The position numbers and the translations under genes were made by a program. 64,000 nucleotides of DNA. Source: Dechloromonas sp. TW-R-39-2 (lineage in GTDB: Bacteria > Pseudomonadota > Gammaproteobacteria > Burkholderiales > Rhodocyclaceae). The stretch spans positions 868,001 through 932,000 of the forward strand of contig NZ_CP045202.1 in the NCBI RefSeq assembly GCF_016864195.1, in the 5' to 3' direction. The notes beneath the pieces were generated by a model. That model did no database searches. It was not told the origin of the DNA and saw nothing but the letters and a program-made list of their open reading frames with translations. Each line of letters starts with the position of its first letter. The first letter of the stretch is position 1. Of this stretch, positions 14,170 to 52,481 are shown in pieces.

Positions 14170-16991
14170 GATTTTCTGTCGAGTAATGGTTTGAGGAAGC
14201 GGCCGGTATGGCTGGCCTTGCACTTGGCGACCTGCTCAGGCGTGCCGGCGGCCAGAATCCGCCCGCCGCCGTCGCCGCCCTCCGGCCCGAGATCGACAAT
14301 CCAGTCGGCGGTCTTGATCACATCGAGATTGTGTTCGATGACGACGATGGTATTGCCGTTGGTCGCCAGCCGCTGCAGCACGCTGAGCAGCATCTCGATA
14401 TCCTGGAAATGCAGGCCGGTGGTCGGTTCGTCGAGGATGTACAGGGTCCGTCCGGTGTCGCGCTTGGACAGTTCGAGCGCCAGTTTGACGCGCTGTGCTT
14501 CGCCGCCCGACAGCGTCGTTGCGCTCTGGCCAAGCGTGATGTAACTCAGGCCGACATCGACCAGTGTCTGCAACTTGCGGGCGATGACCGGCACGGCATC
14601 GAAAAACTCACGCGCCTGCTCGACCGTCATGCCGAGAATGTCGTGGATGTTCTTGCCCTTGTAGTTGATTTCCAGCGTTTCGCGGTTGTAGCGCTTGCCG
14701 TGGCAAACGTCGCACGGCACGTAGATGTCGGGCAGGAAATGCATCTCGACCTTGATCATGCCGTCACCCTGGCACGCCTCGCAGCGCCCGCCCTTGACGT
14801 TGAAGCTGAAGCGGCCCGGCCCGTAGCCGCGGGCGCGCGATTCCGGGACCTGCGAAAAAAGATCGCGGATCGGCGTCAGCAGGCCGGTGTAAGTCGCCGG
14901 GTTGGAGCGCGGCGTGCGGCCGATCGGCGCCTGATCGACGTTGATTACCTTGTCGAACAGTTCCAGCCCGGAAATTTCCTGGTGTGGCGCCGGTTCGCTG
15001 GTCGAACCGTAAAGGTGGCGGGCGGCCGCGGCGTACAGCGTATCGTTGATCAGCGTCGACTTGCCCGAGCCGGAAACGCCGGTAATGCAGGTGAGCAGGC
15101 CGCCGGGAATCTCCAGCGTGACATCCTTGAGGTTGTTGCCGTAGGCGCCGACCACTTTGAGCTGTTTGTCGGGATTTTGTGGTCGACGCGATTTCGGGAG
15201 CGAAATCGAGCGGCGCCCGGACAGGTAGTCGCCGGTCATCGACAGCGGATTGGCCGCCACCTCGGCCGGCGTGCCTTCGGCGACGATGGAACCGCCATGC
15301 ACCCCGGCACCGGGGCCGATATCGATCACGTAATCGGCGGCGCGGATGGCGTCTTCGTCATGCTCGACGACGAGTACGGTATTGCCCATGTCGCGCAGGT
15401 TCTTCAGCGTTTCGAGCAGTCGGTCGTTGTCGCGCTGATGCAGGCCGATCGACGGTTCATCGAGCACATACATCACGCCGGTCAGCCCCGAGCCGATCTG
15501 CGAAGCCAGCCGAATGCGCTGCGCCTCGCCGCCCGATAGCGTTTCGGCCGAACGTTCGAGGCACAGGTAATCGAGGCCGACATTGATCAGGAAGGAGAGG
15601 CGGGCGGTGATTTCCTTGAGGATCTTGTCGGCGACCTGCGCCTTGGCGCCGGTCAGCGTCAGGCAATTGAAGTAATTGCGCGCCTCGCCGAGCGGCAGGC
15701 GGCTGATTTCGTGCAGCGTCTTGGCGCCGACCCGGACGTGGCGCGCCTCAACCCGCAGGCGCGTGCCGCCGCATTGCGGGCAGCCGGTGTTGCTGATGTA
15801 TTTCGACAGTTCCTCGCGCACCGCCTGCGAATCGCTGCCGCGATAACGTCGCTCAAGATTGGGGATGATGCCTTCGAAGGTGTGGCTGCGGTCGAAGCGC
15901 GTGCCCTTGTCGTTGAGATAGCGGAAATTGATTTCAGTCGCGCCGGAACCGTACAGGATCAGCTGGCGCACCGCCTCGGAAAGTTGCTCGAAAGGCGTGT
16001 CGACCGAGAAATCGTAATGCGCGGCAATCGATTCGATGATCTGGAAATAAAACTGGTTCTTCTTGTCCCAGCCGCGAATGGCGCCGCCGGCCAGCGACAG
16101 CGCCGGATTGGTGACGACCCGCTTGGGATCGAAAAACTGGATCACGCCCAGTCCGTCGCACTTCGGGCAGGCGCCCATCGGATTGTTGAACGAGAAAAGA
16201 CGCGGCTCCAGCTCCTGCAAGGCAAACGAGCAGACCGGGCAGGCAAACTTGGCGGAGAACATGTGTTCCGTGCCGCTGTCCATTTCCAGCGCCATGGCCC
16301 GGCCCTCGGCATGGCGCAAGGCGGTTTCGAACGATTCGGCCAGGCGCTGGCGCATGTCGTCGCGCACCTTGAGGCGGTCGACCACGACATCGACATTGTG
16401 TTTCTGCGACTTGGCCAGCTTCGGCACATCGTCGATCTCATACACCGTGCCGTCGACCCGCACCCGCGCAAAACCCTGGGCGCGCAGTTCGGCAAACAGA
16501 TCAACCTGCTCGCCCTTGCGATTGGCTACCACCGGCGCCAGGATCATCAGCTTGGTTTCAGCCGGCAGGGCCAGTACGGTATCGACCATCTGCGACACCG
16601 TTTGCGCTTCGAGCGGCTGATTGTGGTCCGGGCAATACGGCGTACCGGCGCGGGCGAAGAGCAGGCGCAGGTAATCGTGGATTTCGGTGACCGTGCCGAC
16701 GGTTGAACGCGGGTTGTGCGAGGTTGCCTTCTGCTCGATGGAAATGGCCGGCGACAAGCCTTCGATCAGATCGACATCCGGCTTTTCCATCAACTGCAGG
16801 AATTGCCGGGCGTAGGCCGAGAGCGATTCGACGTAGCGGCGCTGCCCCTCGGCATACAAGGTATCGAAGGCCAGCGACGATTTGCCCGAGCCGGAAAGCC
16901 CGGTGATCACGATCAGCTGATCGCGCGGCAGGTCGAGGTTGATGTTCTTCAGATTGTGGGTGCGCGCACCACGAATGCGGATGGTTTCCAT
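14166..16991 (-). CDS. uvrA: Excinuclease ABC subunit A
   Basis: The 941-residue damage-recognition ATPase of nucleotide excision repair, full length. Two ABC modules are present: Walker [15 protein letters not shown] near residue 32 and [14 protein letters not shown] near 640, each with an LSGGEAQR signature. The zinc modules show CPVC…CPKC near 253-285 and CEACQGDG…CDVC near 740-770. The start ATG at 16991 gives [17 protein letters not shown], the canonical N-terminus. It is divergent from the MFS/ssb genes with one lipoprotein gene between, and it is followed by dgkA with a four-base overlap. Confidence 0.97.
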
Positions 16992-41786: not shown

Positions 41787-43253
41787 ATGCCGATGCGCCG
41801 GACACTGTTGTCCCTGGGGGCCGTCGCGCTGCTTGCGCTCAGCGGCTGTGCCAGCTTGCCGGGCGAGGGGGCGGGCGGCTTGCCGCGTGTCTGGACGCAG
41901 TTGGGGCCGGAGGGCGAAGTTTCGCTGCGGGCGATTGTCGCAGCGCATGAAAATTGCCCGTTGGCCGAGGTCGACCGTAGCATCCAGCCAATGCACTGGC
42001 GGGCGCGTCCTGGCGGCGGGCAGGGCGATGCGGCGAATCCCGCGTTTGATCCGCCGTTTGCTGTGGCAGCCTGCGAGCTAATCTTGCCGCCGGGGGCGCG
42101 CGAGGTGCGTGTCGCCGGGCAGGCGGTTGCCTTGCCCGTTGCTTCGCCGCAGCGCATCGTCGTGCTCGGCGATACCGGCTGTCGGATCAAGGTGCCAGCC
42201 AAGGGCAACGGCGATCCGATCCAGGATTGCACCGATCCGCAGGCCTGGCCGTGGGCCGATATTGCTGCCGCAGCGGCGGCCACCCGGCCGGATCTGGTGA
42301 TTCACGTCGGCGATTACCATTACCGCGAAGTCTGCGACGACCCGGAACGTTGCCAGCCCCTGCGCGACAAGGGCGTTGTCGTGACCTACGGCTGGGCCGG
42401 CTGGAATGCCGATTTCTTCAAGCCGGCGGCGCCTTTGCTGGCAGCGGCGCCGTGGGTCTTTGTGCGCGGCAATCACGAAAATTGCGATCGGGCTGGTGAA
42501 GGCTGGATGCGCTTTCTGTCGCCGCTGCCTTATGTTGCGTGCGCCAACCAGCGTTTCCGTTCGGCATCGCGTTCGGTGCTGGGCAATAATTTCACGGCCG
42601 AGGCTTACCGGATTCCGCTGTCGCCGGAGCTGGCGCTGGTCGTGGCCGACAATTCGGGCCATGAGGATTACCGCCCGGCCAGTGCCACGCCGGAAGATGT
42701 GGCGACTTTCGAGCAGACGCTCAAGGTGCTGCAGGCTGCCCCGGTCGACCAGAAAATCTGGCTGCTTTCGCACAAGCCGGTGTGGTACGACCTGCTCGGC
42801 CCTGCGGTGCAGCCGAATGCCTTCCAGACGGTGCTCAAGAGAACCGTGCCGGCCAATCTGCAGGTGTCGTTTGCCGGCCACCAGCATGCTTTCGCGACCT
42901 ACAACTTCGCGCCGGCCAGCGATCCGCAATATCTGGCCGGACGACCGGCGCAGGTGATTGTCGGGGGCGGCGGCACGCAACTCGAATCGCTCGATCCTCA
43001 GTCACCGTTCTTCGAGGGGCGCGGCGCGGCCGGCAGCAAAGAGCGGATGCGTCCGGATGGCCGTACTTATGACGGGGTAGCGGCGCAAAGCGGCATCCTG
43101 CTCAACCGTTACAGCTTTCTGGTGCTCGAACGCGATGCCGAGGGCTGGGCCGGGCGCGTGCTGGATACGCAGGGCGGCCTGATCAGCCGTTGCCGATTGA
43201 GCGGCGGGGGCAAGGAAATGGCTTGCAGTTTCCCCGGTCAACCAGCGAATTAA
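41787..43253 (+). CDS. Metallophosphoesterase lipoprotein
   Basis: A 488-residue predicted lipoprotein with the leader LLALSGCASLPG. The calcineurin-like phosphoesterase motifs appear in order: VLGDTGC near 128, HVGDYHY near 175, VRGNHENC near 228, LLSHKPVWYD near 328 and FAGHQHAF near 357. All metal ligands seem present, so it is probably an active phosphatase or nuclease in the periplasm or on the outer membrane. Its stop overlaps the end of the convergent regulator gene by four bases. Start ATG 41787, with ATG 41793 as alternative. Confidence 0.83.
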   Translation: MPMRRTLLSLGAVALLALSGCASLPGEGAGGLPRVWTQLGPEGEVSLRAIVAAHENCPLAEVDRSIQPMHWRARPGGGQGDAANPAFDPPFAVAACELILPPGAREVRVAGQAVALPVASPQRIVVLGDTGCRIKVPAKGNGDPIQDCTDPQAWPWADIAAAAAATRPDLVIHVGDYHYREVCDDPERCQPLRDKGVVVTYGWAGWNADFFKPAAPLLAAAPWVFVRGNHENCDRAGEGWMRFLSPLPYVACANQRFRSASRSVLGNNFTAEAYRIPLSPELALVVADNSGHEDYRPASATPEDVATFEQTLKVLQAAPVDQKIWLLSHKPVWYDLLGPAVQPNAFQTVLKRTVPANLQVSFAGHQHAFATYNFAPASDPQYLAGRPAQVIVGGGGTQLESLDPQSPFFEGRGAAGSKERMRPDGRTYDGVAAQSGILLNRYSFLVLERDAEGWAGRVLDTQGGLISRCRLSGGGKEMACSFPGQPAN

Positions 43254-44194
43254 GCCGAATTTGCCACCAGATTCGGCGCTGAATTCTGTGCCGCATTTGC
43301 CGTTCGCCACGCCTGGAGCGCAAGCACGGCGGCTTCCAGGCTGGTGAGCAGTTCGATTCCCGCCTGGCTTGGTAGCCGGGCAACGCCTGCGCCGCCAGCC
43401 CAGAGCGCCGTCGTGCCGGGGAGCAGGTGGCGCAATTGCTGCAGCAGGGCGGGTGTCTGGCGGGCAGGATAGGCGATCGAAAACGACAGCGCCACGATAT
43501 CGGCCCGATGGGCCGCCGCCGCCCGGCTGATCTCGGAGAGCGGCATTTCGGTACCGAGTGGAATGCATTCGGCCCCTTCCAGCGCGAGCAGGGCTTCGAC
43601 CATGAGCAGGCCGAGAACATGCTGCTCCTCGGGCACGCTGGTCAGCAGCACGCGCGGTGCCAGCCGGCTGCTCGGCAGGCCGGCGATGGCCTGGCGCAAC
43701 AGGCGCTTGGTCAGTTCGGTGAACAGGTGTTCCTCGAAGACCTCGAAGCTGCCATCTTCCCAGGCTTCGCCGACGCGACAGGTGAGCGGTGCCACCGTGT
43801 CCTGGACAAAACGCTGCAACCCTTGCCGCCCGAGGCGCTGCTGCATCGCCTGCTGATAGGCGATACCGTCGTGCTGTTTGATCAGGGCGAGCAGTTCGGC
43901 CAGCTCCGCGCTGTCGGCCTGCGCCGTCCGGTGCTGTTCCTTGGCCCGGCGCGGGCTTAGCGTGGCCAGCTCTTCGCTGCTGGCCGGAATCAGCTTGCCG
44001 GGGCGATGCCCTTGATCCATCAGGCGTTTTATCAGGCGCAGGCGTTCGACCTGTTCGCCCGGATAGCAGCGTTCGCCGTTGCTGTCGCGACTTGGCATCG
44101 GGAAGCCATAGCGCCTTTCCCACATCCGCAGCACATCCTTGGAGAGGCCGGTTTCGCGCTCGACGGCGGCAATATTGAAATCCAGTGGATTCAT
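43250..44194 (-). CDS. litR: MerR-type regulator with cobalamin-binding domain (CarH/LitR family photoreceptor)
   Basis: A 314-residue repressor. Residues 1-70 are a MerR DNA-binding domain (LSKDVLRMWERRYGFP). A helical bundle follows with the family's W-x9-EH motif (W145, E155, H156), then a B12-binding Rossmann domain with ExHxxG as EQHVLG (H192 is the likely lower cobalt ligand). CarH/LitR proteins bind DNA with adenosylcobalamin in the dark and let go in light. The residue after W145 is Glu; in Thermus CarH it is His132, which ligates cobalt after photolysis. The gene is divergent from a photo-oxidative stress operon. ATG 44194 is chosen from MNPLDFNIAAVE. Confidence 0.88.
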   Translation of the reverse strand: MNPLDFNIAAVERETGLSKDVLRMWERRYGFPMPSRDSNGERCYPGEQVERLRLIKRLMDQGHRPGKLIPASSEELATLSPRRAKEQHRTAQADSAELAELLALIKQHDGIAYQQAMQQRLGRQGLQRFVQDTVAPLTCRVGEAWEDGSFEVFEEHLFTELTKRLLRQAIAGLPSSRLAPRVLLTSVPEEQHVLGLLMVEALLALEGAECIPLGTEMPLSEISRAAAAHRADIVALSFSIAYPARQTPALLQQLRHLLPGTTALWAGGAGVARLPSQAGIELLTSLEAAVLALQAWRTANAAQNSAPNLVANSA

Positions 44195-44288
44195 ATTTGT
44201 CCTGAACAAATGTTAGACAAAGCATTGACAAATCAAATTTTCAGCCCTATCTTACGAACAAATCTTAATTTTGTCTAGGACAAATCAA
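44195..44288. promoter_or_regulatory. Divergent promoters with two sets of 11-bp direct repeats (CarH-type operator)
   Basis: Rightward promoter: TTGACA (44225-44230), 17 bases, TATCTT (44248-44253). Leftward promoter: TAGACA (complement of 44272-44277), 17 bases, TAAGAT (complement of 44249-44254), so the two -10 boxes coincide. Three contiguous 11-bp repeats, GAACAAATGTT, AGACAAAGCAT and TGACAAATCAA, fill 44204-44236 and the last overlaps the rightward -35. A second set at 44256-44266 and 44278-44288, with a degenerate middle unit, covers the leftward -35. CarH is known to bind 11-bp direct repeats. Confidence 0.8.
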
Positions 44289-44298
44289 GGAGTTGTCG

Positions 44299-44856
44299 AT
44301 GATCTCAGTTCTCAAGCGCTGGATGGGTATTGCCGGATTGTTGTCGGTCGGTGTGGTCCCAGCGGCGGATGCCAGCCAGTGCCCGGATTTGCTCAACCAT
44401 AGTTTTGCCGGCTTGCAGGATGGCAAGCCACAGTCGCTTTGCCAGTATCAGGGCAAGGTGATCCTGGTGGTCAATACGGCCAGTTATTGCGGGTTCACCA
44501 GCCAGTACGATGGCCTGGAAAAACTGTATGCCCGGCTGAAGGACAAGGGGTTGGTGGTGCTGGGCTTTCCGTCGAACGATTTTGGCGAGCAGGAGCCGGG
44601 CGGCAGCAAGGAAATCGCCGATTTTTGCCGCCTGACTTATGGCGTCGATTTCCCGATGCTGGCCAAGTCGTCGGTCAAGGGCAAGGCGGCCAATCCCTTT
44701 TATTTGAAGCTGGCTGAAATCACAGGCAGCCGGCCGCGCTGGAATTTCCACAAATACCTGATCAATCGCGATGCCACGCAGGTGCTTTCCTTCGGCAGCA
44801 TGACCGCGCCGGATGACAAGGAACTGCTGGCCAGAATCGACGCGTTTCTCAAATAA
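44299..44856 (+). CDS. Exported glutathione peroxidase-family protein
   Basis: A 185-residue thiol peroxidase with a signal peptide (residues about 1-26, ending in PAADAS). The peroxidatic Cys is C64 in NTASYCGFTSQY, GFPSNDFGEQEPG contains the conserved Gln, and WNFHKYLI the Trp-Asn. It reduces lipid or hydrogen peroxides in the periplasm. AAGGAG at 44287-44292 sets ATG 44299. First gene of the operon under the divergent B12-type regulator, consistent with defence against photo-oxidative lipid damage. Confidence 0.9.
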   Translation: MISVLKRWMGIAGLLSVGVVPAADASQCPDLLNHSFAGLQDGKPQSLCQYQGKVILVVNTASYCGFTSQYDGLEKLYARLKDKGLVVLGFPSNDFGEQEPGGSKEIADFCRLTYGVDFPMLAKSSVKGKAANPFYLKLAEITGSRPRWNFHKYLINRDATQVLSFGSMTAPDDKELLARIDAFLK

Positions 44857-44886: not shown

Positions 44887-45687
44887 ATGAATGCCCCAGA
44901 TAACTTTTTCCTGCCCGACGTGCAGTCGACCGCAGACACGCGCCGTCTGGCCATTCAGAGCGTCGGCGTCAAGGGTTTGCGCTATCCGCTGCAACTGGAA
45001 ACGGCCAGCGGCGAAACGCAGAGCACCGTCGCCAGCCTGACGATGACGGTTGGCTTGCCGCCCGAGGTCAAGGGTACGCACATGTCGCGCTTCGTCGAAC
45101 TGCTCGAAAGCCGCAGTACCGCGCTGAGCCAGGCCGGGCTGTTCGGCATGCTCGACGAAATGCTGCTCCGGCTCGATGCCGCGAGCGGCCGCATCGAACT
45201 GGCTTTCCCGTATTTCATCAAGAAGAAAGCGCCGGTTTCCGGCGTTGAAAGCCTGCTTGACTACGATGCGACCCTGATTGCCGAGCAACTGGCCGGGCAG
45301 CCGCCAAGCCTGACGCTGCGGGTTGTTGCGGCGGTGACCAGCCTGTGTCCGTGTTCGCGCAAGATTTCGGATTACGGCGCGCACAACCAGCGTTCGCACA
45401 TCACGCTGGAGACGCGTTTGCGCGCGCCGATGGCGATCGAGGAACTGGTTCGTCTGGCCGAAGAGGAGGCTTCCTGCGAGGTTTTCGGCTTGCTCAAGCG
45501 GCCGGATGAAAAGTGGGTGACTGAACGGGCCTACGACAATCCGAAGTTTGTCGAAGACCTGGTGCGCGACATCGCGCTGCGCTTGATGCGCGAGCCGCGC
45601 ATCGGGCAGTGGAAGGTGATTTCCGAGAACTTCGAATCGATCCACAACCATTCGGCCTATGCCGAATTGTCCGGTACGAACGACTGA
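44887..45687 (+). CDS. folE2: GTP cyclohydrolase FolE2
   Basis: A 266-residue GCYH-IB enzyme that converts GTP to dihydroneopterin triphosphate, the first step to folate and pterins. Motifs include GTHMSRFVELLE and the metal-binding Cys in VTSLCPCSRKISDYGAHNQRS near 154. FolE2 works with metals other than zinc. FolE-type genes recur in LitR-controlled light-induced operons, perhaps to make a pterin cofactor or photolyase antenna. It starts 30 bases after the peroxidase gene. Confidence 0.94.
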   Translation: MNAPDNFFLPDVQSTADTRRLAIQSVGVKGLRYPLQLETASGETQSTVASLTMTVGLPPEVKGTHMSRFVELLESRSTALSQAGLFGMLDEMLLRLDAASGRIELAFPYFIKKKAPVSGVESLLDYDATLIAEQLAGQPPSLTLRVVAAVTSLCPCSRKISDYGAHNQRSHITLETRLRAPMAIEELVRLAEEEASCEVFGLLKRPDEKWVTERAYDNPKFVEDLVRDIALRLMREPRIGQWKVISENFESIHNHSAYAELSGTND

Positions 45688-45697
45688 GAGGCGCGCC

Positions 45698-47008
45698 ATG
45701 ACCCGAAAGCATCGTATCGCCGTGGTCGGTGCCGGTATTTCCGGCCTGGCCAGCGCCTGGCTGCTCAGCCGGAATCATGAAGTGACCCTGTTCGAAGCCG
45801 CGGACTACCTCGGTGGTCACACCAACACGGTCGACGTGACGCTGGAGGGTAAAACGCACCCGGTCGATACCGGTTTCCTGGTGTTCAACGACCAGACCTA
45901 TCCCAACCTGATCGCCCTGTTCGAGTTGCTGGGGGTGGATAGCGTCGAAACCGAAATGTCGTTTGCCGTCAGTCTGGAAAAGCCGGATCTGGAATGGGCC
46001 GGGAGCAATCTGGCGACCGTTTTCGGGCAGAAGCGCAATCTGCTCCGGCGCTCTTTCTGGGCCATGCTGGCCGACATTCTCCGCTTCAACCGCGAGAGTC
46101 AGGCCTGGCTTGTTTCGTTCCAGGACGATCAGCGCAGCCTGCGCGATTTCCTGACCGAAGGTCGTTATTCGCCGGCTTTTTCGGATTGGTATCTGCTGCC
46201 GATGGCCGCGGCGATCTGGTCGTGTCCGACTGGTCAGATGCTCGACATGCCGTTGTCCACCTTCATCCGTTTTTGTCGCAACCATGGCTTGCTGCAGGTC
46301 TTCGACCGCCCGACGTGGCGCACGGTGCAGGGCGGCGGACGGGCTTACGTCAGGAAAGTAGCGGAACAACTCGACGATGTGCGCCTGGCCTGCCCGGTCA
46401 GCGCCGTGAGTCGCGAGGCGGGCCAGTTGCGCGTCGTGCATGCCGGCGGCAGCGAATTGTTCGACCGCGTGGTGATGGCCTGTCACAGCGATCAGGCGCT
46501 GGCGATTCTTGGCATGGCGGCGAGCGATATGCAGCGCGAGATATTGTCGGCGATTCGTTACCAGCCGAACCGCGCCGTGTTGCATACCGACCGCGCCTTG
46601 CTGCCGCGCGATGAAAAGCTGTGGTCGGCGTGGAATTACTTTTCCGGCAGCGGTGCGCCGGGCGAGCAGCCGGTTGGCGTTTCCTACCTGATCAACAAGC
46701 TGCAGCCCCTGCCGTTCAAGACGCCGGTCGTCGTCACGCTCAACCCGGCGCGCGAGCCCGATTCGGCCAAAATCATTGCCGAGTTCGATTATGCCCACCC
46801 GATTTTCGATGGTCCGGCGATTGCCGCCCAACGTCGTCTGGCGCATGTCCAGGGCGAAAACGGGATCTGGCTGGCCGGTGCCTGGGGAAGCTATGGCTTC
46901 CATGAAGACGGTTTGAAGTCGGCCTTGCGGGTCGCCAACAGCATGGGCATTGCCGCGCCGTGGCAGATGGCGCCGCAAGCGGTCGAGCGCGAACTCGACA
47001 CTGTTTGA
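45698..47008 (+). CDS. FAD-dependent amine-oxidase-like oxidoreductase (UfaD/RSP_1091-like)
   Basis: A 436-residue flavoprotein. The dinucleotide motif VVGAGISGLASAWLL is at about 9-23, followed by HEVTLFEAADYLGGHTNTV. The C-terminal FAD segment is GIWLAGAWGSYGFHEDGLKSA. This family is consistently next to DUF1365 and a cyclopropane-synthase-like methyltransferase. In Rhodobacter a related gene set lies in the singlet-oxygen regulon and is tied to furan fatty acid synthesis. A lipid desaturase or oxidase role is inferred from that. ATG 45698 lies 10 bases after the folE2 stop. Confidence 0.85.
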   Translation: MTRKHRIAVVGAGISGLASAWLLSRNHEVTLFEAADYLGGHTNTVDVTLEGKTHPVDTGFLVFNDQTYPNLIALFELLGVDSVETEMSFAVSLEKPDLEWAGSNLATVFGQKRNLLRRSFWAMLADILRFNRESQAWLVSFQDDQRSLRDFLTEGRYSPAFSDWYLLPMAAAIWSCPTGQMLDMPLSTFIRFCRNHGLLQVFDRPTWRTVQGGGRAYVRKVAEQLDDVRLACPVSAVSREAGQLRVVHAGGSELFDRVVMACHSDQALAILGMAASDMQREILSAIRYQPNRAVLHTDRALLPRDEKLWSAWNYFSGSGAPGEQPVGVSYLINKLQPLPFKTPVVVTLNPAREPDSAKIIAEFDYAHPIFDGPAIAAQRRLAHVQGENGIWLAGAWGSYGFHEDGLKSALRVANSMGIAAPWQMAPQAVERELDTV

Positions 47009-47018
47009 GCCGACGACC

Positions 47019-47786
47019 ATGGCACAGCTTCCGCAACTGTTCATCGGCCACGTGATGCACCGGCGCTTGCGTCCGGCGGTCAATGCCTTCGTTTATCCGG
47101 TGTTTTACGTGCAGTTGCCGCTGCACGACCTGGCGGCGGCAAATAGCCGGTTTTTTGCGGTCGACCGCAGCAATCTGCTCAGTTTCCGGCGCCAGGACCA
47201 TGGGCCGCGCGATGGCAGCGAGCTGCTGCCATGGATTCAGCAATTGCTTCGCCAGCGCGGTTTGCCGGATGACGGCGAGATCACGCTGCAATGTTTCCCG
47301 CGCCTGATGGGTTATGTCTTCAATCCGGTCAGTTTCTGGTTTTGCCGCGACCGCAGCGGGGCGCTGGTTGCCGTTCTGGCTGAGGTGCGCAATACCTTCG
47401 GCGGGCGCCACGAATACCTGCTGCACAACGCGGATGGCTCCCCCTTGCTCGATGGACAGGAAATCAGGGCGAGCAAGGCGTTTCATGTCTCGCCTTTCTG
47501 CGACATCGAAGGCGCTTATCGCTTCCGTTTTCATCTTGACCGTCCGGTGCCGCTGGTGCGTATCGATTACGACGATGCCGAGGGTGAATTGCTGCTCACC
47601 TCGATTTCCGGCAAGCCGCGCGGCTGGTCTGCCCCGGCTTTGCTCGGAGCCTGTCTGCGCATGCCTTTTCTGACGCTGGGCGTGATGCTGCGCATCCACT
47701 GGCAAGCCTTGAAACTCTGGTTGAAAGGGGTGCCTTTCCTCGGCGCCCATCCCGTCCAACCTCCCTTGCAGGAGCCGCTGAAATGA
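47019..47786 (+). CDS. DUF1365 protein
   Basis: A 255-residue protein of the DUF1365 family. Conserved blocks are LFIGHVMHRRLRPAVNAFVYPVFYV at the N-terminus, FPRLMGYVFNPVSFWFCRD near 100, EVRNTFGGRHEYLL near 125 and KAFHVSPFCDIEGAYRF near 155. The biochemical role is unproven; genetics in alphaproteobacteria link it to modified fatty acids and to turnover of the singlet-oxygen anti-sigma factor. Its stop overlaps the methyltransferase start (ATGA), so the two are coupled. Confidence 0.9.
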   Translation: MAQLPQLFIGHVMHRRLRPAVNAFVYPVFYVQLPLHDLAAANSRFFAVDRSNLLSFRRQDHGPRDGSELLPWIQQLLRQRGLPDDGEITLQCFPRLMGYVFNPVSFWFCRDRSGALVAVLAEVRNTFGGRHEYLLHNADGSPLLDGQEIRASKAFHVSPFCDIEGAYRFRFHLDRPVPLVRIDYDDAEGELLLTSISGKPRGWSAPALLGACLRMPFLTLGVMLRIHWQALKLWLKGVPFLGAHPVQPPLQEPLK

Positions 47787-48976
47787 ACCAAACCCTGACG
47801 CTGGGCCGTAGCAGCGGCCTGAACCGCGATACCCGACTGGTTTTCGAATTGCTCGAAAAGATCAGCGGAGGCGTGCTTGAAATTCGTTTGCCGGACGGCT
47901 CCTGCGCCCTGTTTGGCGAGGGCGAGCCGGGCGTGACGATGCAGGTGCACGATGAAGCGATGTTCGGCCAGATTCTGGCGCGGGGCGATATCGGCCTGGC
48001 CGAAGCCTATCTCGACGGGGCCTGGGATTCGCCTGACATTACCGGGCTGCTCGGCCTGCTGGCGCGCAACCGCGATGTGCTCAAGAAGGCGGTTTATGGC
48101 TCGTGGCGCGGTCTGGCGGCGGCGCGTATCCGGCACTGGCTGAACCGCAACAGCAAGGCGGGCAGCAAGCGCAACATCATGGCGCATTACGATCTCGGCA
48201 ACGATTTCTACAAGCTCTGGCTCGATCCGGGCATGAGCTATTCGAGCGCGTTGTTCCGGGCCGGTGAAGTCGACCGCATCGATGACCTCGAAGCGGCCCA
48301 GGCGGCCAAGTACCGCCGCATCCTGCAGCACCTGCATGCCGAACCCGGCCAGCGGGTGCTCGAAATCGGCTGCGGTTGGGGCGGTTTTGCCGAGGAAGCC
48401 GTGGCCGAAGGCTTGGCCGTGACCGGTCTGACGCTGTCGCCAGCCCAGTTGGCATGGGCGCAAAAACGCGTGCCGCAGGCCGATCTCCGGCTGCAGGATT
48501 ACCGCGATACGAAGGAGCGTTTCGACCATGTCGTGTCGATCGAAATGTTCGAAGCCGTCGGCGAGCGTTTCTGGCCAGGCTATTTCAAGACCGTGGCCGC
48601 TGCGCTCAAGCCGGGTGGCCGGGCGGTGATCCAGAGCATCACGATTCGCGACGACCTGTTTGCCAGCTACCGCAAGGGAACCGATTTCATCCAGCAGTAT
48701 GTTTTCCCCGGCGGCATGCTGCCCTCGCGCAGCGCTTTCCGTAGCGCGGCAGCGCGTGCCGGGCTGGTCGTGCGCGGTGAATACGCGTTCGGCGAGGATT
48801 ACGCCCGCACCCTGGCCGAGTGGCGTCATGCCTTCGAAGCCCACTGGCCGCAGATTGCCGCACTGGGTTTTGACGAGCCTTTCCGTCGTTTGTGGCGGAT
48901 GTATCTCTGCTATTGCGAGGCCGGTTTCCTGGCCGGGAATGTCGATGTCGTCCAGTTCGAACTGGCCCATCGCTGA
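47783..48976 (+). CDS. Cyclopropane-fatty-acid-synthase-like SAM methyltransferase
   Basis: A 397-residue enzyme that should transfer a methylene or methyl group from SAM to the double bond of phospholipid acyl chains. An N-terminal lipid-binding domain (about 1-115) precedes the Rossmann methyltransferase with HYDLGNDFYKLWLDPGMSYSSALF near 134 and VLEIGCGWGGFAEEA near 192. Its pairing with the flavoprotein and DUF1365 genes suggests it makes methylated-unsaturated intermediates, as UfaM does for furan fatty acids, rather than simple cyclopropanes. This is inference; a plain cfa is the alternative. Confidence 0.9.
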   Translation: MNQTLTLGRSSGLNRDTRLVFELLEKISGGVLEIRLPDGSCALFGEGEPGVTMQVHDEAMFGQILARGDIGLAEAYLDGAWDSPDITGLLGLLARNRDVLKKAVYGSWRGLAAARIRHWLNRNSKAGSKRNIMAHYDLGNDFYKLWLDPGMSYSSALFRAGEVDRIDDLEAAQAAKYRRILQHLHAEPGQRVLEIGCGWGGFAEEAVAEGLAVTGLTLSPAQLAWAQKRVPQADLRLQDYRDTKERFDHVVSIEMFEAVGERFWPGYFKTVAAALKPGGRAVIQSITIRDDLFASYRKGTDFIQQYVFPGGMLPSRSAFRSAAARAGLVVRGEYAFGEDYARTLAEWRHAFEAHWPQIAALGFDEPFRRLWRMYLCYCEAGFLAGNVDVVQFELAHR

Positions 48977-48989
48977 GCCGCCGCAGACC

Positions 48990-49550
48990 ATGGCTGAAGC
49001 AGCCTGTCGCGGTCAACAGCTGGACGGACGGCAAAACCGCAGTTTCTCGGCCGTGCGACGCAGCCTGCTGCTCGTGCTGGCCGCCGCGCCGCTGGCCGGC
49101 TTTGCCGCGAGCGATCCGACGGCCGGGCTGAAACGCTGGGGAAGCGGGGAGTTCCGCCGCTTCGGTTTCCTGGTCTACGAGGCCACCTTGTGGGCCGCCG
49201 CCGATCCGGTCCAGCCGCCGCTCGCCTTGCGCCTGACCTACAAGCGCAATATCGCCGGGCTGGCGATTGCCGAAGCAAGCATCAAGGAAATCCGCAACCT
49301 CGGCATCGGTGATGCGCCGACCCTGAAACGCTGGGGTGAGCAACTGGCTGCGCTGTTTCCCGATGTCAAACCGGGCGACCGGATTGTCGGCCATTACCAG
49401 CCGGATGCGGCCCGGTTCTATTTCAATGAACGCCTGATCGGGAAAATCGATGAGCCGCTCTTCGCGCGTGCCTTTTTCGGCATCTGGCTGGATGCCGGCA
49501 CCAGCGCGCCGGAACTGCGCACGGCGTTGCTCAAGCCGCCGGCCGACTGA
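48990..49550 (+). CDS. Exported chalcone-isomerase-like protein
   Basis: A 186-residue exported protein. A Tat/Sec-like leader with RRSLLLVLAAAPLAGFAA ends near residue 40, and the mature part is a chalcone isomerase-like fold: FRRFGFLVYEATLWA, ALRLTYKRNIAGLAIAEASIKEIRNLG, DRIVGHYQPDAARFYFNERLIGKI and FARAFFGIWLDAGTSAPELRTALL. Non-plant members of this fold bind fatty acids. That fits an operon of lipid-modifying genes. The start codon is uncertain; a shorter form beginning at VRRSLLL is possible. Confidence 0.78.
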   Translation: MAEAACRGQQLDGRQNRSFSAVRRSLLLVLAAAPLAGFAASDPTAGLKRWGSGEFRRFGFLVYEATLWAAADPVQPPLALRLTYKRNIAGLAIAEASIKEIRNLGIGDAPTLKRWGEQLAALFPDVKPGDRIVGHYQPDAARFYFNERLIGKIDEPLFARAFFGIWLDAGTSAPELRTALLKPPAD

Positions 49551-49551
49551 G

Positions 49552-50775
49552 ATGCATGGCGGCCGCGTCCTGTCGTACGGCCTGCTCGGCCTGCCGCTGG
49601 CCTTTGCCGCCTTGCCGGTCTATGTCCATGTGCCGCATTTTTATGCCGAGACAACCGGCCTGTCGCTCGCCGTGCTTGGCGCCATTTTGCTGGCTGCCCG
49701 CTTGCTCGATGCCGGCATCGATCCCTGGCTCGGCTGGCTGGCCGACCGTGTTTCGCGGCCGCGCATGGTGGCCATCGCACTGTTGCCTTTCGCCCTCGGC
49801 TTCGTTGCCTTGCTCAATCCGCCGGGTGTCGCCCCGGCCTTCTGGCTGCTCGCATCGCTGGCCCTGACCTACCTGGGTTTTTCGGCGGCCAGCGTGGCCT
49901 ACCAGGCGTGGGGGACGGATGTCGGGACTGATTCTGCGCTGCGTACCCGGTTGACCGCAGCACGCGAGGGATTCGGCCTGCTCGGCGTTGTCCTGGCGGC
50001 GGCTCTGCCTGCGCTGCTGGCCAGCGATTCGAGTCAGGGCGTTGCCCGGTTGGGCTGGGTTTTTCTTCCGCTGTTGATGGTCGCCGCAGCGATCACCTTT
50101 GCTACGCATGCGGCGGCCCGTCCGCAACCTACCGTAGCGCAGCCCTTGCTGCCCAGCCTGCGCCGTGTCTTGGCCGATCAGCCTTTCCGTCGCTTGCTGC
50201 TGGTCTTTGTCGCTAATGGGATTGCCGCCGCCTTGCCGGCCACGCTGTTCCTGTTTTTCGTCGCCGATATCCTGCTGCAGCCCCAGGCCGGCGGCCCCTT
50301 GCTGGCGGTTTATTTCATCGCCGGGGCAGTTTCCTTGCCCTTTTGGGTCCGGCTGGCTGCTCGTTTCGGACGGGTTACCGCCTGGCTGGGGGCGATGGTG
50401 TTGTCGATCCTGGCTTTTGCCGGAGCCAGCCTGATCGGGCCGGGCGACCTGGCCGGGTTTGCCGTGATCTGCGTTGCCTCCGGGCTGGCGCTGGGCGCCG
50501 ACCTGGCTTTGCCGGCGGCGATGGCGGCCGATCTCGGCGAACGCCAGGGACAAGCGGGCGCTTGCTTCGGCGTCTGGAATTTCGTCGCCAAGCTGAATCT
50601 CGCGCTGGCCGCCGGTCTTTCCCTGCCCCTGCTGGCGATGCTGGGCTATCAACCGGGCAGCGGCACCGGGCTTGCCGCCCTGAGCCTTGCCTATGCGCTG
50701 CTGCCGCTGGCCTTCAAATCACTGGCCGGGCTGCTGCTTTGGCGCTGGCGTCATTCATTGGAGATTGCATCATGA
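49552..50775 (+). CDS. MFS transporter, GPH-symporter-like
   Basis: A 407-residue, 12-helix transporter. LLAARLLDAGIDPWLGWLADRVSRPR is the loop 2-3 motif of the glycoside-pentoside-hexuronide:cation symporter group. A member of this group also sits in the related Rhodobacter operon. In a lipid-modifying operon it may flip or move lipids (MelB-like lysolipid transporters are in this group), but that is speculation. It begins one base after the previous stop and overlaps the next start by four bases. Confidence 0.82.
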   Translation: MHGGRVLSYGLLGLPLAFAALPVYVHVPHFYAETTGLSLAVLGAILLAARLLDAGIDPWLGWLADRVSRPRMVAIALLPFALGFVALLNPPGVAPAFWLLASLALTYLGFSAASVAYQAWGTDVGTDSALRTRLTAAREGFGLLGVVLAAALPALLASDSSQGVARLGWVFLPLLMVAAAITFATHAAARPQPTVAQPLLPSLRRVLADQPFRRLLLVFVANGIAAALPATLFLFFVADILLQPQAGGPLLAVYFIAGAVSLPFWVRLAARFGRVTAWLGAMVLSILAFAGASLIGPGDLAGFAVICVASGLALGADLALPAAMAADLGERQGQAGACFGVWNFVAKLNLALAAGLSLPLLAMLGYQPGSGTGLAALSLAYALLPLAFKSLAGLLLWRWRHSLEIAS

Positions 50776-51305
50776 AACTACTGGCCGCCCTCTTTCTTTC
50801 GCTCGGCCTGAGCGGCTGTGCTTCGACCGGTGTCGAGCAATACCGTAGCGAACAGCCGGAGCTCGACCTGAAAACCTACCTCAACGGCACGCTCGACGCC
50901 TGGGGTGTCTTTCAGGGGCGCTCCGGCGAGGTCAAGAAACGCTTCCATGTGGTGATCGACGCCCGGTGGAGCGGCGATACCGGCGTGCTCGACGAAAACT
51001 TCACATGGTCGGACGGCACCGTCTCGCGCCGGGTATGGACCTTGAAGCGGCAGCCGGATGGTAGTTACCGCGGCACGGCCGACGATGTCGTTGGCGAGGC
51101 GATCGGCGAGCTGGCTGGCAATGCCTTGCGCTGGCGCTATGTGCTGGCCTTGCCGGTTGATGGCAAGGTGATCCACGTTGATTTTGATGACTGGATGTTC
51201 CTGATCGACGACACGGTGATGCTCAACCGCTCCTACATGACGAAATGGGGCTTCAACCTCGGTGAGGTGACGCTCAGTTTCGTCAAGCGGCAGGCCCGGC
51301 AATGA
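50772..51305 (+). CDS. DUF3833 lipoprotein
   Basis: A 177-residue lipoprotein with leader LFLSLGLSGCAST. The mature domain is a beta-rich DUF3833 module: YLNGTLDAWGVFQGRSGEVKKRFHVVI, FTWSDGTVSRRVWTLK, NALRWRYVLALPVDGKVIHVDFDDWMFLIDD and MTKWGFNLGEVTLSF. The fold is lipocalin-like, suited to binding lipids at the outer membrane. It is recurrent in this operon type. Both ends overlap neighbouring genes by four bases. Confidence 0.88.
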   Translation: MKLLAALFLSLGLSGCASTGVEQYRSEQPELDLKTYLNGTLDAWGVFQGRSGEVKKRFHVVIDARWSGDTGVLDENFTWSDGTVSRRVWTLKRQPDGSYRGTADDVVGEAIGELAGNALRWRYVLALPVDGKVIHVDFDDWMFLIDDTVMLNRSYMTKWGFNLGEVTLSFVKRQARQ

Positions 51306-52057
51306 ACCCAAAAATCAGCGAGTGGCAGGGCAAGCGCGTCTGGCTGGTTGGCGCGTCGAGCGGCATCGGTGCAGCCATGGCGCACGAGCTGGCGCGGCGG
51401 GGTACGCGGCTTGCCGTCTCGGCTCGCAGCCTCGACAAACTGACGGCGCTCGGCGTGGCCGGTGCGCTGCTGCTGCCGTGCGATGCGACCGACCGTGAGG
51501 CGCTGGCCGTGGCCCGGCAAACGCTGCTTGATTGCTGGGGCGGCGTCGACCTGGTGGTTTATCTGGCTGGCGATTATGTGCCGATGCGGGCCGACGATTT
51601 CGATCTGGCGGTTGCCGAGCGGGTGCTGGCGGTCAATTTCAACGCCGCGCTGCGCCTCGCGGCAACGGTCTTGCCGGATCTCCGCGCTGGCGGCGGTATC
51701 GCCTTCGTTGCCAGCGTGGCCGGTTATCGCGGCTTGCCCAAGGCTTTGTGCTACGGCCCGGGCAAGGCCGCCTTGATCCATTTTGCCGAGGTGTTGCACC
51801 TCGACCTGCTGGCGCGAGGTATCGGTGTCTGGCTGATCAATCCGGGCTTTGTCGCCACCCAATTGACGGCCCAAAACGATTTCGCCATGCCCGCCTTGCT
51901 GACACCGGAACAAGCCGCGATTGCTGCGGTCGACGGGTTTCGCAGCGGACATTTCGAAATTCATTTCCCGAAACGCTTCACCCTGATCATGAAGCTTTTG
52001 GCCCACTTGCCTTACTGCTGGTATTTCCCGCTGATTCGCCGTTTGACCGGAGGTTGA
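51302..52057 (+). CDS. Short-chain dehydrogenase/reductase
   Basis: A 251-residue classical SDR. The cofactor motif is VGASSGIGAAMAHELARRG near residues 14-32, the CDATDREA acidic site follows, and the catalytic Ser and Tyr-x3-Lys are in FVASVAGYRG and LCYGPGKAAL. The C-terminus is hydrophobic (LLAHLPYCWYFPLIRRL), so it may contact membranes. An SDR is also part of the comparable Rhodobacter singlet-oxygen operon. Substrate unknown. Confidence 0.88.
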   Translation: MNPKISEWQGKRVWLVGASSGIGAAMAHELARRGTRLAVSARSLDKLTALGVAGALLLPCDATDREALAVARQTLLDCWGGVDLVVYLAGDYVPMRADDFDLAVAERVLAVNFNAALRLAATVLPDLRAGGGIAFVASVAGYRGLPKALCYGPGKAALIHFAEVLHLDLLARGIGVWLINPGFVATQLTAQNDFAMPALLTPEQAAIAAVDGFRSGHFEIHFPKRFTLIMKLLAHLPYCWYFPLIRRLTGG

Positions 52058-52058
52058 A

Positions 52059-52481
52059 ATGAAACACGAGGCCTTGATTGCCTTCTTCCAGACCCTGTCG
52101 CCGGAAAGTGTGGCTCGGTTTCCGGCGTTCTACACCGAGAATGCCTTTTTCAAGGACCCGTTCAACGAAGTGCGCGGTCTACCGGCCATCCAGCACATTT
52201 TCAGTCACATGTTCAAACAGGTCGATGAGCCTCGTTTCGTGGTCACCGAGCGGGTGGTCGATGAGGGCGGCGCGATGCTGGTCTGGGAGTTCTGCTTTCG
52301 GGTGCGTCTCTGGGGCAGGGGTGAGACGCAGATGATGCGCGGTGTTTCGCATCTGCGTTTCGATCCGGATGGGCGGGTCAATTACCACCGCGACTACTGG
52401 GATACGGCCGAAGAGCTGTATGTCAAATTGCCGGCCATCGGCTTGCTGATGCGCGGTTTGCGGCGGGTGCTGGCAGCCTGA
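52059..52481 (+). CDS. NTF2/SnoaL-like protein
   Basis: A 140-residue single-domain protein. FFQTLSPESVARFPAFYTENAFFKDPFNEVRGLPAIQHIFSHMF is the typical helical opening of a SnoaL-like cone fold, and HLRFDPDGRVNYHRDYWDTAEELY closes it. Members often bind small hydrophobic ligands. It is the last gene of the operon that begins with the peroxidase. About 97 bases follow before the next gene. Confidence 0.85.
   Translation: MKHEALIAFFQTLSPESVARFPAFYTENAFFKDPFNEVRGLPAIQHIFSHMFKQVDEPRFVVTERVVDEGGAMLVWEFCFRVRLWGRGETQMMRGVSHLRFDPDGRVNYHRDYWDTAEELYVKLPAIGLLMRGLRRVLAA

Follow-up and report, generated by a model that had tools for sequence, protein, structure and literature searches.

Genes and promoters of the divergent region

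The locus lies in a 64,000-nucleotide stretch of DNA, referred to here as the window, and its features are collected in Table 1. A gene for a B12-type regulator and a putative operon that starts with gpx stand back to back, with 104 bp between their start codons. This intergenic region has a G+C content of 34%, compared with 59% for the window.

A consensus scan of positions 43900-44600 detected exactly two promoters, TTGACA-N17-TATCTT on the plus strand (44225/44253, 10/12 matches) and TAGACA-N17-TAAGAT on the minus strand (44277/44249, 9/12 matches); shuffled sequences gave a mean of 0.4. Both had been named in an earlier sequence-only reading, and the scan also agrees with two of its further claims: that the two -10 boxes coincide at 44248-44254 and that the third of three repeats overlaps the -35 of the promoter facing the peroxidase operon. 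If transcription begins 7 bp past each -10, the rule given in PMC12825309, the start sites are predicted at about 44260 (+) and 44242 (-), 18 bp apart. In bidirectional promoters with a symmetric -10, PMC12825309 describes start-site distances of about 10, 18 or 23 bp, of which 18 is the commonest. The exact string TTGACA-N17-TATCTTA, counted genome-wide at any position, was matched in 27 of the 36 genomes sampled from the window's genus (the window's own genome among them) and in 1 of 24 genomes of the order; the reversed control matched 3 of the 60 genomes in the two sets together.

Table 1. Features of the regulator-gpx locus, in window coordinates.
Feature	Position	Strand	Basis or remark
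CarH/LitR-type regulator: MerR HTH, B12-binding_2 and B12-binding	43250..44194	-	Pfam, NCBIfam, fold
Left inverted-repeat box TTTGTCC-T-GAACAAA, TTTGTCCTGAACAAA	44196..44210	.	one mismatch to consensus
Three tandem 11-bp repeats nnnnTnnACAn	44199..44231	+	TGAACA 44203, TAGACA 44214, TTGACA 44225; motif as described in PMC9304148
-35 TTGACA of forward (gpx operon) promoter, doubling as third repeat	44225..44230	+	promoter scan
-10 TATCTT of forward promoter, 17-bp spacer	44248..44253	+	promoter scan
-10 TAAGAT of regulator promoter, coincident with forward -10	44249..44254	-	promoter scan
GAACAAA element after -10	44256..44262	+	22 bp in register with GGACAAA of right box
Right inverted-repeat box TTTGTCT-A-GGACAAA, TTTGTCTAGGACAAA	44270..44284	.	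no mismatch to consensus
-35 TAGACA of regulator promoter, within right box	44272..44277	-	promoter scan
Glutathione peroxidase (gpx), first gene of putative operon	44299..44856	+	PF00255
GTP cyclohydrolase FolE2 (folE2)	44887..45687	+	profile matches
FAD amine-oxidase-type protein, UfaD-like	45659..47008	+	domain; putative role from description in PMC7380195
DUF1365 protein, UfaO-like	46998..47786	+	domain; description in PMC7380195
SAM-dependent fatty acyl methylase type (CMAS), UfaM-like	47783..48976	+	domain; description in PMC7380195
Chalcone-isomerase-like protein	48981..49550	+	PF16036
MFS_2 transporter, start uncertain	49537..50775	+	Pfam; scanned as 49450-50775
DUF3833 protein, start uncertain	50772..51305	+	profile match
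Short-chain dehydrogenase (SDR)	51302..52057	+	Pfam
SnoaL-like protein	52059..52481	+	Pfam

Direct repeats and inverted-repeat boxes

The CarH repeat motif described in PMC9304148 is nnnnTnnACAn, with the core TnnACA. Three contiguous 11-mers fit it without mismatch: GTCCTGAACAA (44199-44209), ATGTTAGACAA (44210-44220) and AGCATTGACAA (44221-44231). They are the repeats previously placed at 44204-44214, 44215-44225 and 44226-44236 for their common GACAAA/GAACAAA, read in another frame. Three TnnACA cores at 11-bp spacing occur once in the window and in 0 of 100 shuffles. The single match in the 3.46-Mb genome is the present site; the reversed-pattern control also gave one.

The conserved unit, however, is a 15-bp inverted repeat, TTTGTCYNRGACAAA, which is present twice and flanks the common -10 (Table 1). 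Its consensus over relatives is TTTGTC[CT]N[GA]GACAAA. The earlier second set of repeats, at 44256-44288, stood in part. Its GAACAAA element after the -10 is real, being conserved at 83-94% per base among the 47 non-redundant loci whose boxes are as far apart as those of the window, and the opposing -35 is covered. A clean direct repeat is not found there: GAACAAA (44256-44262) and GGACAAA (44278-44284) lie 22 bp apart on the plus strand, both lack the T of TnnACA, and the opposite-strand half-site TTTGTCT stands between them. A minus-strand array TCGACA-TTGATT-TAGACA (44299-44272), in 11-bp register in the window, was absent from the relatives' consensus and was rejected; only its TAGACA is claimed.

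A regulon elsewhere in the window's own genome was considered and rejected. With up to two mismatches the box matched 15 places, compared with 18 for the control, and with 0-1 mismatch it matched only the two boxes of the present site. Pairs of ACAAA at 11 bp gave 13 matches genome-wide and 7 in the control, and no other site stood above the control. Two of the 13 are the present repeats, and one is a further pair on the minus strand at window 15165-15180. Among the other ten, viewed in context, three (L223, L224 and L233) lie near apparent gene starts, and none has a box. A box-like site with two mismatches inside the regulator gene (43796-43810) may be due to chance.

Ordinary promoter similarity might account for such strings, as the intergenic DNA is AT-rich in a GC-richer window and contains TTGACA-like sequences. 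Nevertheless, the triple repeat arose in 0 of 20,000 shuffles of the AT-rich 104 bp, and two boxes likewise in 0. The conservation and co-occurrence described below also argue strongly against a coincidence, which we consider scarcely credible.

Conservation and spacing of the boxes in relatives

Among the 150 family genomes searched, 60 contained the regulator, with 63 matches in total. Fifty-nine matches were examined, leaving aside G040, which starts at a contig end, and weaker second copies in G065, G071 and G108. The upstream regions measured up to 380 bp each, and some of the counts include a box inside the first gene. Boxes with at most two mismatches numbered at least two in 50 regions, one in 7 and none in 2, whereas two boxes were found in 0 of 5900 shuffled regions and one in 0.34%. 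The repeats are thus conserved upstream of regulator orthologues, a check that the sequence-only reading had itself proposed. A pair 55-90 bp apart was present in 51/59 orthologous regions when up to three mismatches were accepted.

The set was then enlarged by 80 loci and 15 class-level loci, the window's own being dropped; 150 of 154 loci were kept after removal of near-duplicates. A box pair with at most two mismatches was present in 108 of these non-redundant loci and lacking in 42. The distance between the paired boxes was 62-64 bp in 52 loci and 72-75 bp in 52, and never 65-71 bp. The individual distances were 63 (41 loci), 74 (47), 62 (4), 64 (7), 73 (2), 75 (2), 72, 77 and 86 (1 each) and 42 (2). 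The two modes therefore differ by 11 bp, the step of one repeat. On a FastTree tree of the regulators (103 labelled rows, without branch support), the distance classes switch at least 7 times. The forward promoter keeps a fixed offset from the right box, with TTGAC in 92/105 loci, TAnnnT in 93/105 and both in 90/105, so that the 11-bp shift falls on the left box.

The boxes are also oriented. The centre base is A in 103 of 108 right boxes and T in 85 of 108 left boxes, so that the TnnACA reading mostly points to the common -10 from both sides. The right box provides the reverse -35, T(A/G)GACA, in all 51 paired family loci. Box pairs with the same spacing were found outside the family, for example in Ramlibacter, Noviherbaspirillum and class-level genomes (regulators near 44-51% identity); other loci, the two of Massilia among them, had no box pair. 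Two distant class-level homologues (L214 and L216, about 31% identity) have box-like pairs 42 bp apart, not 63 or 74, and the [DE]xHxxG motif is absent from their matched part.

These data bear on a literal Thermus-type operator, in which one tetramer on 44199-44231 would control the forward promoter and the right-hand sequence would be minor. Such an operator is suggested by the three TnnACA repeats without mismatch, of which the third coincides with the -35, as described for TtCarH in PMC9304148. However, conservation is as strong for the right box as for the left one, as its centre base indicates, and the right box carries the reverse -35. In addition, the middle repeat is TnnACA in 36/47 of the 74-bp loci, and the 63-bp layout has no room for it. 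TnnACA stands at all three positions (left, middle and -35) in 35 of the 47 loci with a 74-bp distance, and at both the left and the -35 position in 21 of the 41 loci with a 63-bp distance. We regard this arrangement as very unlikely. The direct-repeat operator of the sequence-only reading thus holds for TnnACA at 11-bp spacing over the -35, but the widely conserved unit is the inverted-repeat box pair. A description by direct repeats alone was rejected as incomplete, since conservation extends to the outward half-sites.

Since the regulator belongs to the MerR superfamily, the site could also be that of a MerR-type activator realigning a badly spaced promoter. Both spacers, however, are 17 bp, the forward geometry is kept in the 90 loci mentioned above, and the boxes lie outside the spacer; this is highly improbable. 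According to PMC12825309, a 17-bp spacer is already optimal. With such spacers on both sides no MerR-type realignment is needed, so that occlusion of both -35s would be the simplest reading.

Co-occurrence of box and regulator

Of the 60 regulator-bearing family genomes, 51 contained the exact box and 9 did not; of the 90 genomes without the regulator, 2 contained it (Fisher test 4e-28, kinship ignored). The reversed-box control was found in one genome, G067. In the two exceptions, G045 and G056, a relaxed regulator search gave partial matches only (E 3e-6 and 2e-18, respectively), and both have an exact box without a full-length regulator match (L098 and L097). The box of G045 precedes gpx, with TTGACA 12 bp further on; there, the regulator may have been lost or may be missing from the draft.

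The gpx operon and other box-bearing genes

The genes downstream of gpx and folE2 include three that resemble the genes of furan fatty acid synthesis, carried out by UfaD, UfaO and UfaM in Rhodobacter according to PMC7380195. They are called Ufa-like here by their domains and neighbourhood, without alignment to the Rhodobacter proteins. Among 18 of the 59 loci, fetched at 8-14 kb, 15 had all three Ufa-type genes close to the regulator, 7 had gpx there and 7 had folE2.

Twenty-three box-bearing stretches away from a regulator match were also taken among the matches listed; one of them, L104, is the main operator on a contig end. Their genes were called by a simple script, and one or two per site were scanned. 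Five of these 23 listed stretches (L096, L101, L105, L108 and L112) had a photolyase, cryptochrome or DPRP gene directly beside the box or one gene further away. Other genes in the same set were gpx (2), fasciclin (2), DUF3429 (3) and chemoreceptors (2), and about half of the stretches had no evident light link. Together, the operon and the photolyase genes that stand at a box in certain relatives suggest a regulon for light or photo-oxidative stress. Against such a regulon, the single PF03441 photolyase gene of the window's genome has no box within three mismatches and no TnnACA pair. At L091 and L109, exact boxes lie beside chemoreceptor (MCP) genes, which would suggest light-controlled taxis if they are functional.

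In some relatives of the 63-bp class (L027, L029, L030, L037, L044, L047, L049 and similar loci), a small ORF comes first in the operon. Those listed are 67-116 aa long, with an N-terminal hydrophobic stretch and the motif V-x-D-K ... HR; none of the four tested matched a Pfam family above cut-off. A third box lies in frame inside this ORF, in the best case as F-V-Q-D-K. Its wobble bases look held for the DNA, as the codon before Val ends in T in 7/7 and Lys is AAA in 6/6; Lys is AAA in 11/36 in the regulators of the same loci. The strict motif was fitted by only 7 of 52 loci.

CarH/class I LitR homology of the regulator

By its domains, motifs and fold, the regulator is a homologue of CarH and class I LitR, in agreement with the divergent CarH-type regulator proposed earlier. 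MerR_1, B12-binding_2 and B12-binding were all matched above the Pfam cut-off, and the best NCBIfam match was the CarH equivalog NF052513, at 118.6 bits and so far below its cut-off of 400. The nearest solved chains were 3whp and 5c8d, both CarH (E 1e-27). A structure predicted with a pLDDT of 91 retrieved full-length TtCarH on top of the fold search (E 1e-17). The TM-score over the full length was only about 0.53 because the domains sit differently, and for the cobalamin-binding domain it reached 0.84 (by target). Among the 50 fold matches listed, 48 were CarH entries and 2 were photocobilins. Unlike class II LitR, the protein has both B12-binding domains, and no TGTACA was seen by eye in the intergenic sequence.

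The motifs W-x9-EH, which caps the adenosyl group, [DE]xHxxG (axial His) and GxxW were present in all 59 orthologues. In the published photoreceptor signature (GxxW, EH, GxxH, GxxxP), GxxxP was found in 58/59 and GxxH in 5/59; the window's protein lacks GxxH. Cys210, in the cobalamin-binding domain, is present in 54/59 orthologues, and the Thermus CarH residue aligned with it is Ala. It is a possible extra ligand. The genome encodes a cobalamin adenosyltransferase, which makes AdoB12 plausible as the cofactor.

The position of TtCarH His132, the residue after W, holds M (22), L (15), E (10), V (4), T (3), A (2), I (2) or F (1) in the orthologues, and H in 0/59; H occurred in 3 of a further 96 loci. 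His132 is the light-state (bis-His) ligand of Thermus CarH. The position is variable elsewhere, and other light-responsive domains lack the His too (PMC11796333). Its loss in all 59 orthologues means that the Thermus light mechanism cannot simply be transferred; it weakens that mechanism and yet leaves light control possible.

The same operator and regulator might thus answer a signal other than light, the B12-binding domain sensing the cobalamin form or redox state and light acting little or not at all for want of the His132 switch. In addition to the missing residue, targets like gpx fit general oxidative stress. Furthermore, the TtCarH H132A variant was mostly tetrameric in the light in one study, which cites an earlier report of disassembly (PMC10442372). 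On the other hand, CtMerR, in which the corresponding residue is Arg, nevertheless dissociates from tetramer to monomer in the light (PMC11796333). The W and EH pocket residues are kept in 59/59 orthologues, and photolyase/cryptochrome-type genes stand at a box in the five listed loci of relatives mentioned above. Altogether, we consider a signal other than light rather unlikely.

Proposed mechanism

We think it probable that the adjacent CarH/class I LitR-type regulator has its operator here, over a bidirectional promoter, with AdoB12-dependent repression in both directions in the dark and release in the light. Counting against this are the missing His132, the low GxxH count, the NCBIfam score under the CarH cut-off, the photolyase gene without a box, the lack of other sites above control in this genome, the regulator-bearing genomes and loci without boxes, and the many box sites of relatives with no evident light link. 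The sequence-only reading was right in the main: its single control region over both promoters is supported, and its light switch is plausible. The architecture is better captured as a pair of inverted-repeat boxes, set in 11-bp phase over a bidirectional promoter.

The two boxes, with the half-site GGACAAA, lie on either side of the common symmetric -10. The left box runs on to the forward -35 in 11-bp phase, with an additional TnnACA repeat in between at the present site, and the minus-strand half-site of the right box is the reverse -35. In the dark, the AdoB12-bound regulator, as one or more oligomers, would occupy the boxes and both -35s, excluding RNA polymerase in both directions. The regulator would thereby repress its own gene together with the gpx-folE2-UfaD/O/M-type operon, presumably transcribed as one unit. 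Light would break the Co-C bond, the oligomer would let go and both directions would be released.

In a wider picture, which we hold tentatively and at slightly under an even chance, these regulators form a mainly betaproteobacterial B12-photoreceptor branch without the His132 switch. Each would govern a bidirectional promoter via two boxes whose distance varies by whole 11-bp repeats only. One light event would then free, in both directions at once, the photoreceptor gene and a protection regulon with membrane (furan fatty acid) and peroxide functions and, in some relatives, photolyase. Such a system would link B12 photoreceptors with bidirectional promoters and with genes of the furan-fatty-acid type, and it offers a concrete operator with a spacing rule testable in vitro. 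It also provides a large natural set of CarH-type proteins without His132, a set relevant to the question of how the CarH oligomer comes apart in the light. If true, about 40% of the sampled family genomes (60/150) may carry such a regulator, relatives such as Accumulibacter, Dechloromonas and Zoogloea among them.

Comparison with known systems

The closest known system is CarH of Thermus thermophilus (PDB 5C8D/5C8E/5C8F), which has the same domain order, fold, W-x9-EH and axial-His motif. Its operator, as described in PMC9304148, likewise has the -35 inside one of its 11-bp TnnACA repeats. It consists of three tandem 11-bp repeats, whereas two inverted-repeat boxes lie on a bidirectional promoter here. 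Moreover, Thermus CarH has His132 and is associated with carotenoid genes, in contrast to the absence of His132 and the gpx/folE2/Ufa-type genes of the present locus.

The CarH operators of Myxococcales (M. xanthus, Cystobacter, Sorangium) likewise have 11-bp repeats and a -35 inside a repeat (PMC9304148). As here, inverted repeats are described for M. xanthus, and overlapping divergent promoters under one site have been proposed for Sorangium (PMC9304148). The Myxococcales operators control carotenoid genes, and the present box sequence, the common -10 and the 63/74 rule were not encountered in PMC9304148.

For class II LitR/LOV of Pseudomonas (PplR, PmlR2), PMC9758184 describes comparable light-induced genes, namely phrB, ufaM, folE, cryB, an SDR and an FAD oxidoreductase, with sites that lie over the -35 and beyond the transcription start. 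Class II LitR differs in having only one of the two B12-binding domains, LOV partners and the site TGTACA-N12-TGTACA.

The bidirectional promoters of E. coli have a common symmetric -10 as well, and the 18 bp predicted here is their commonest start distance (PMC12825309). One of them is known to be closed in both directions by a repressor, AcrR (PMC12825309). They differ in that they are not known to have a B12 or light regulator; their MerR-family case, SoxR, activates one side and blocks the other.

In the open-licence literature, as covered by titles and the starts of abstracts, no description of the box or of a B12-type LitR operator in these bacteria was found. The furan-fatty-acid genes of Rhodobacter sphaeroides are under a singlet-oxygen-responsive sigma/anti-sigma pair. 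This ChrR/sigma-E system includes UfaD, UfaO (DUF1365) and UfaM-type genes (PMC7380195), like the present operon. Unlike in R. sphaeroides, the Ufa-type genes here stand beside a B12-type regulator.
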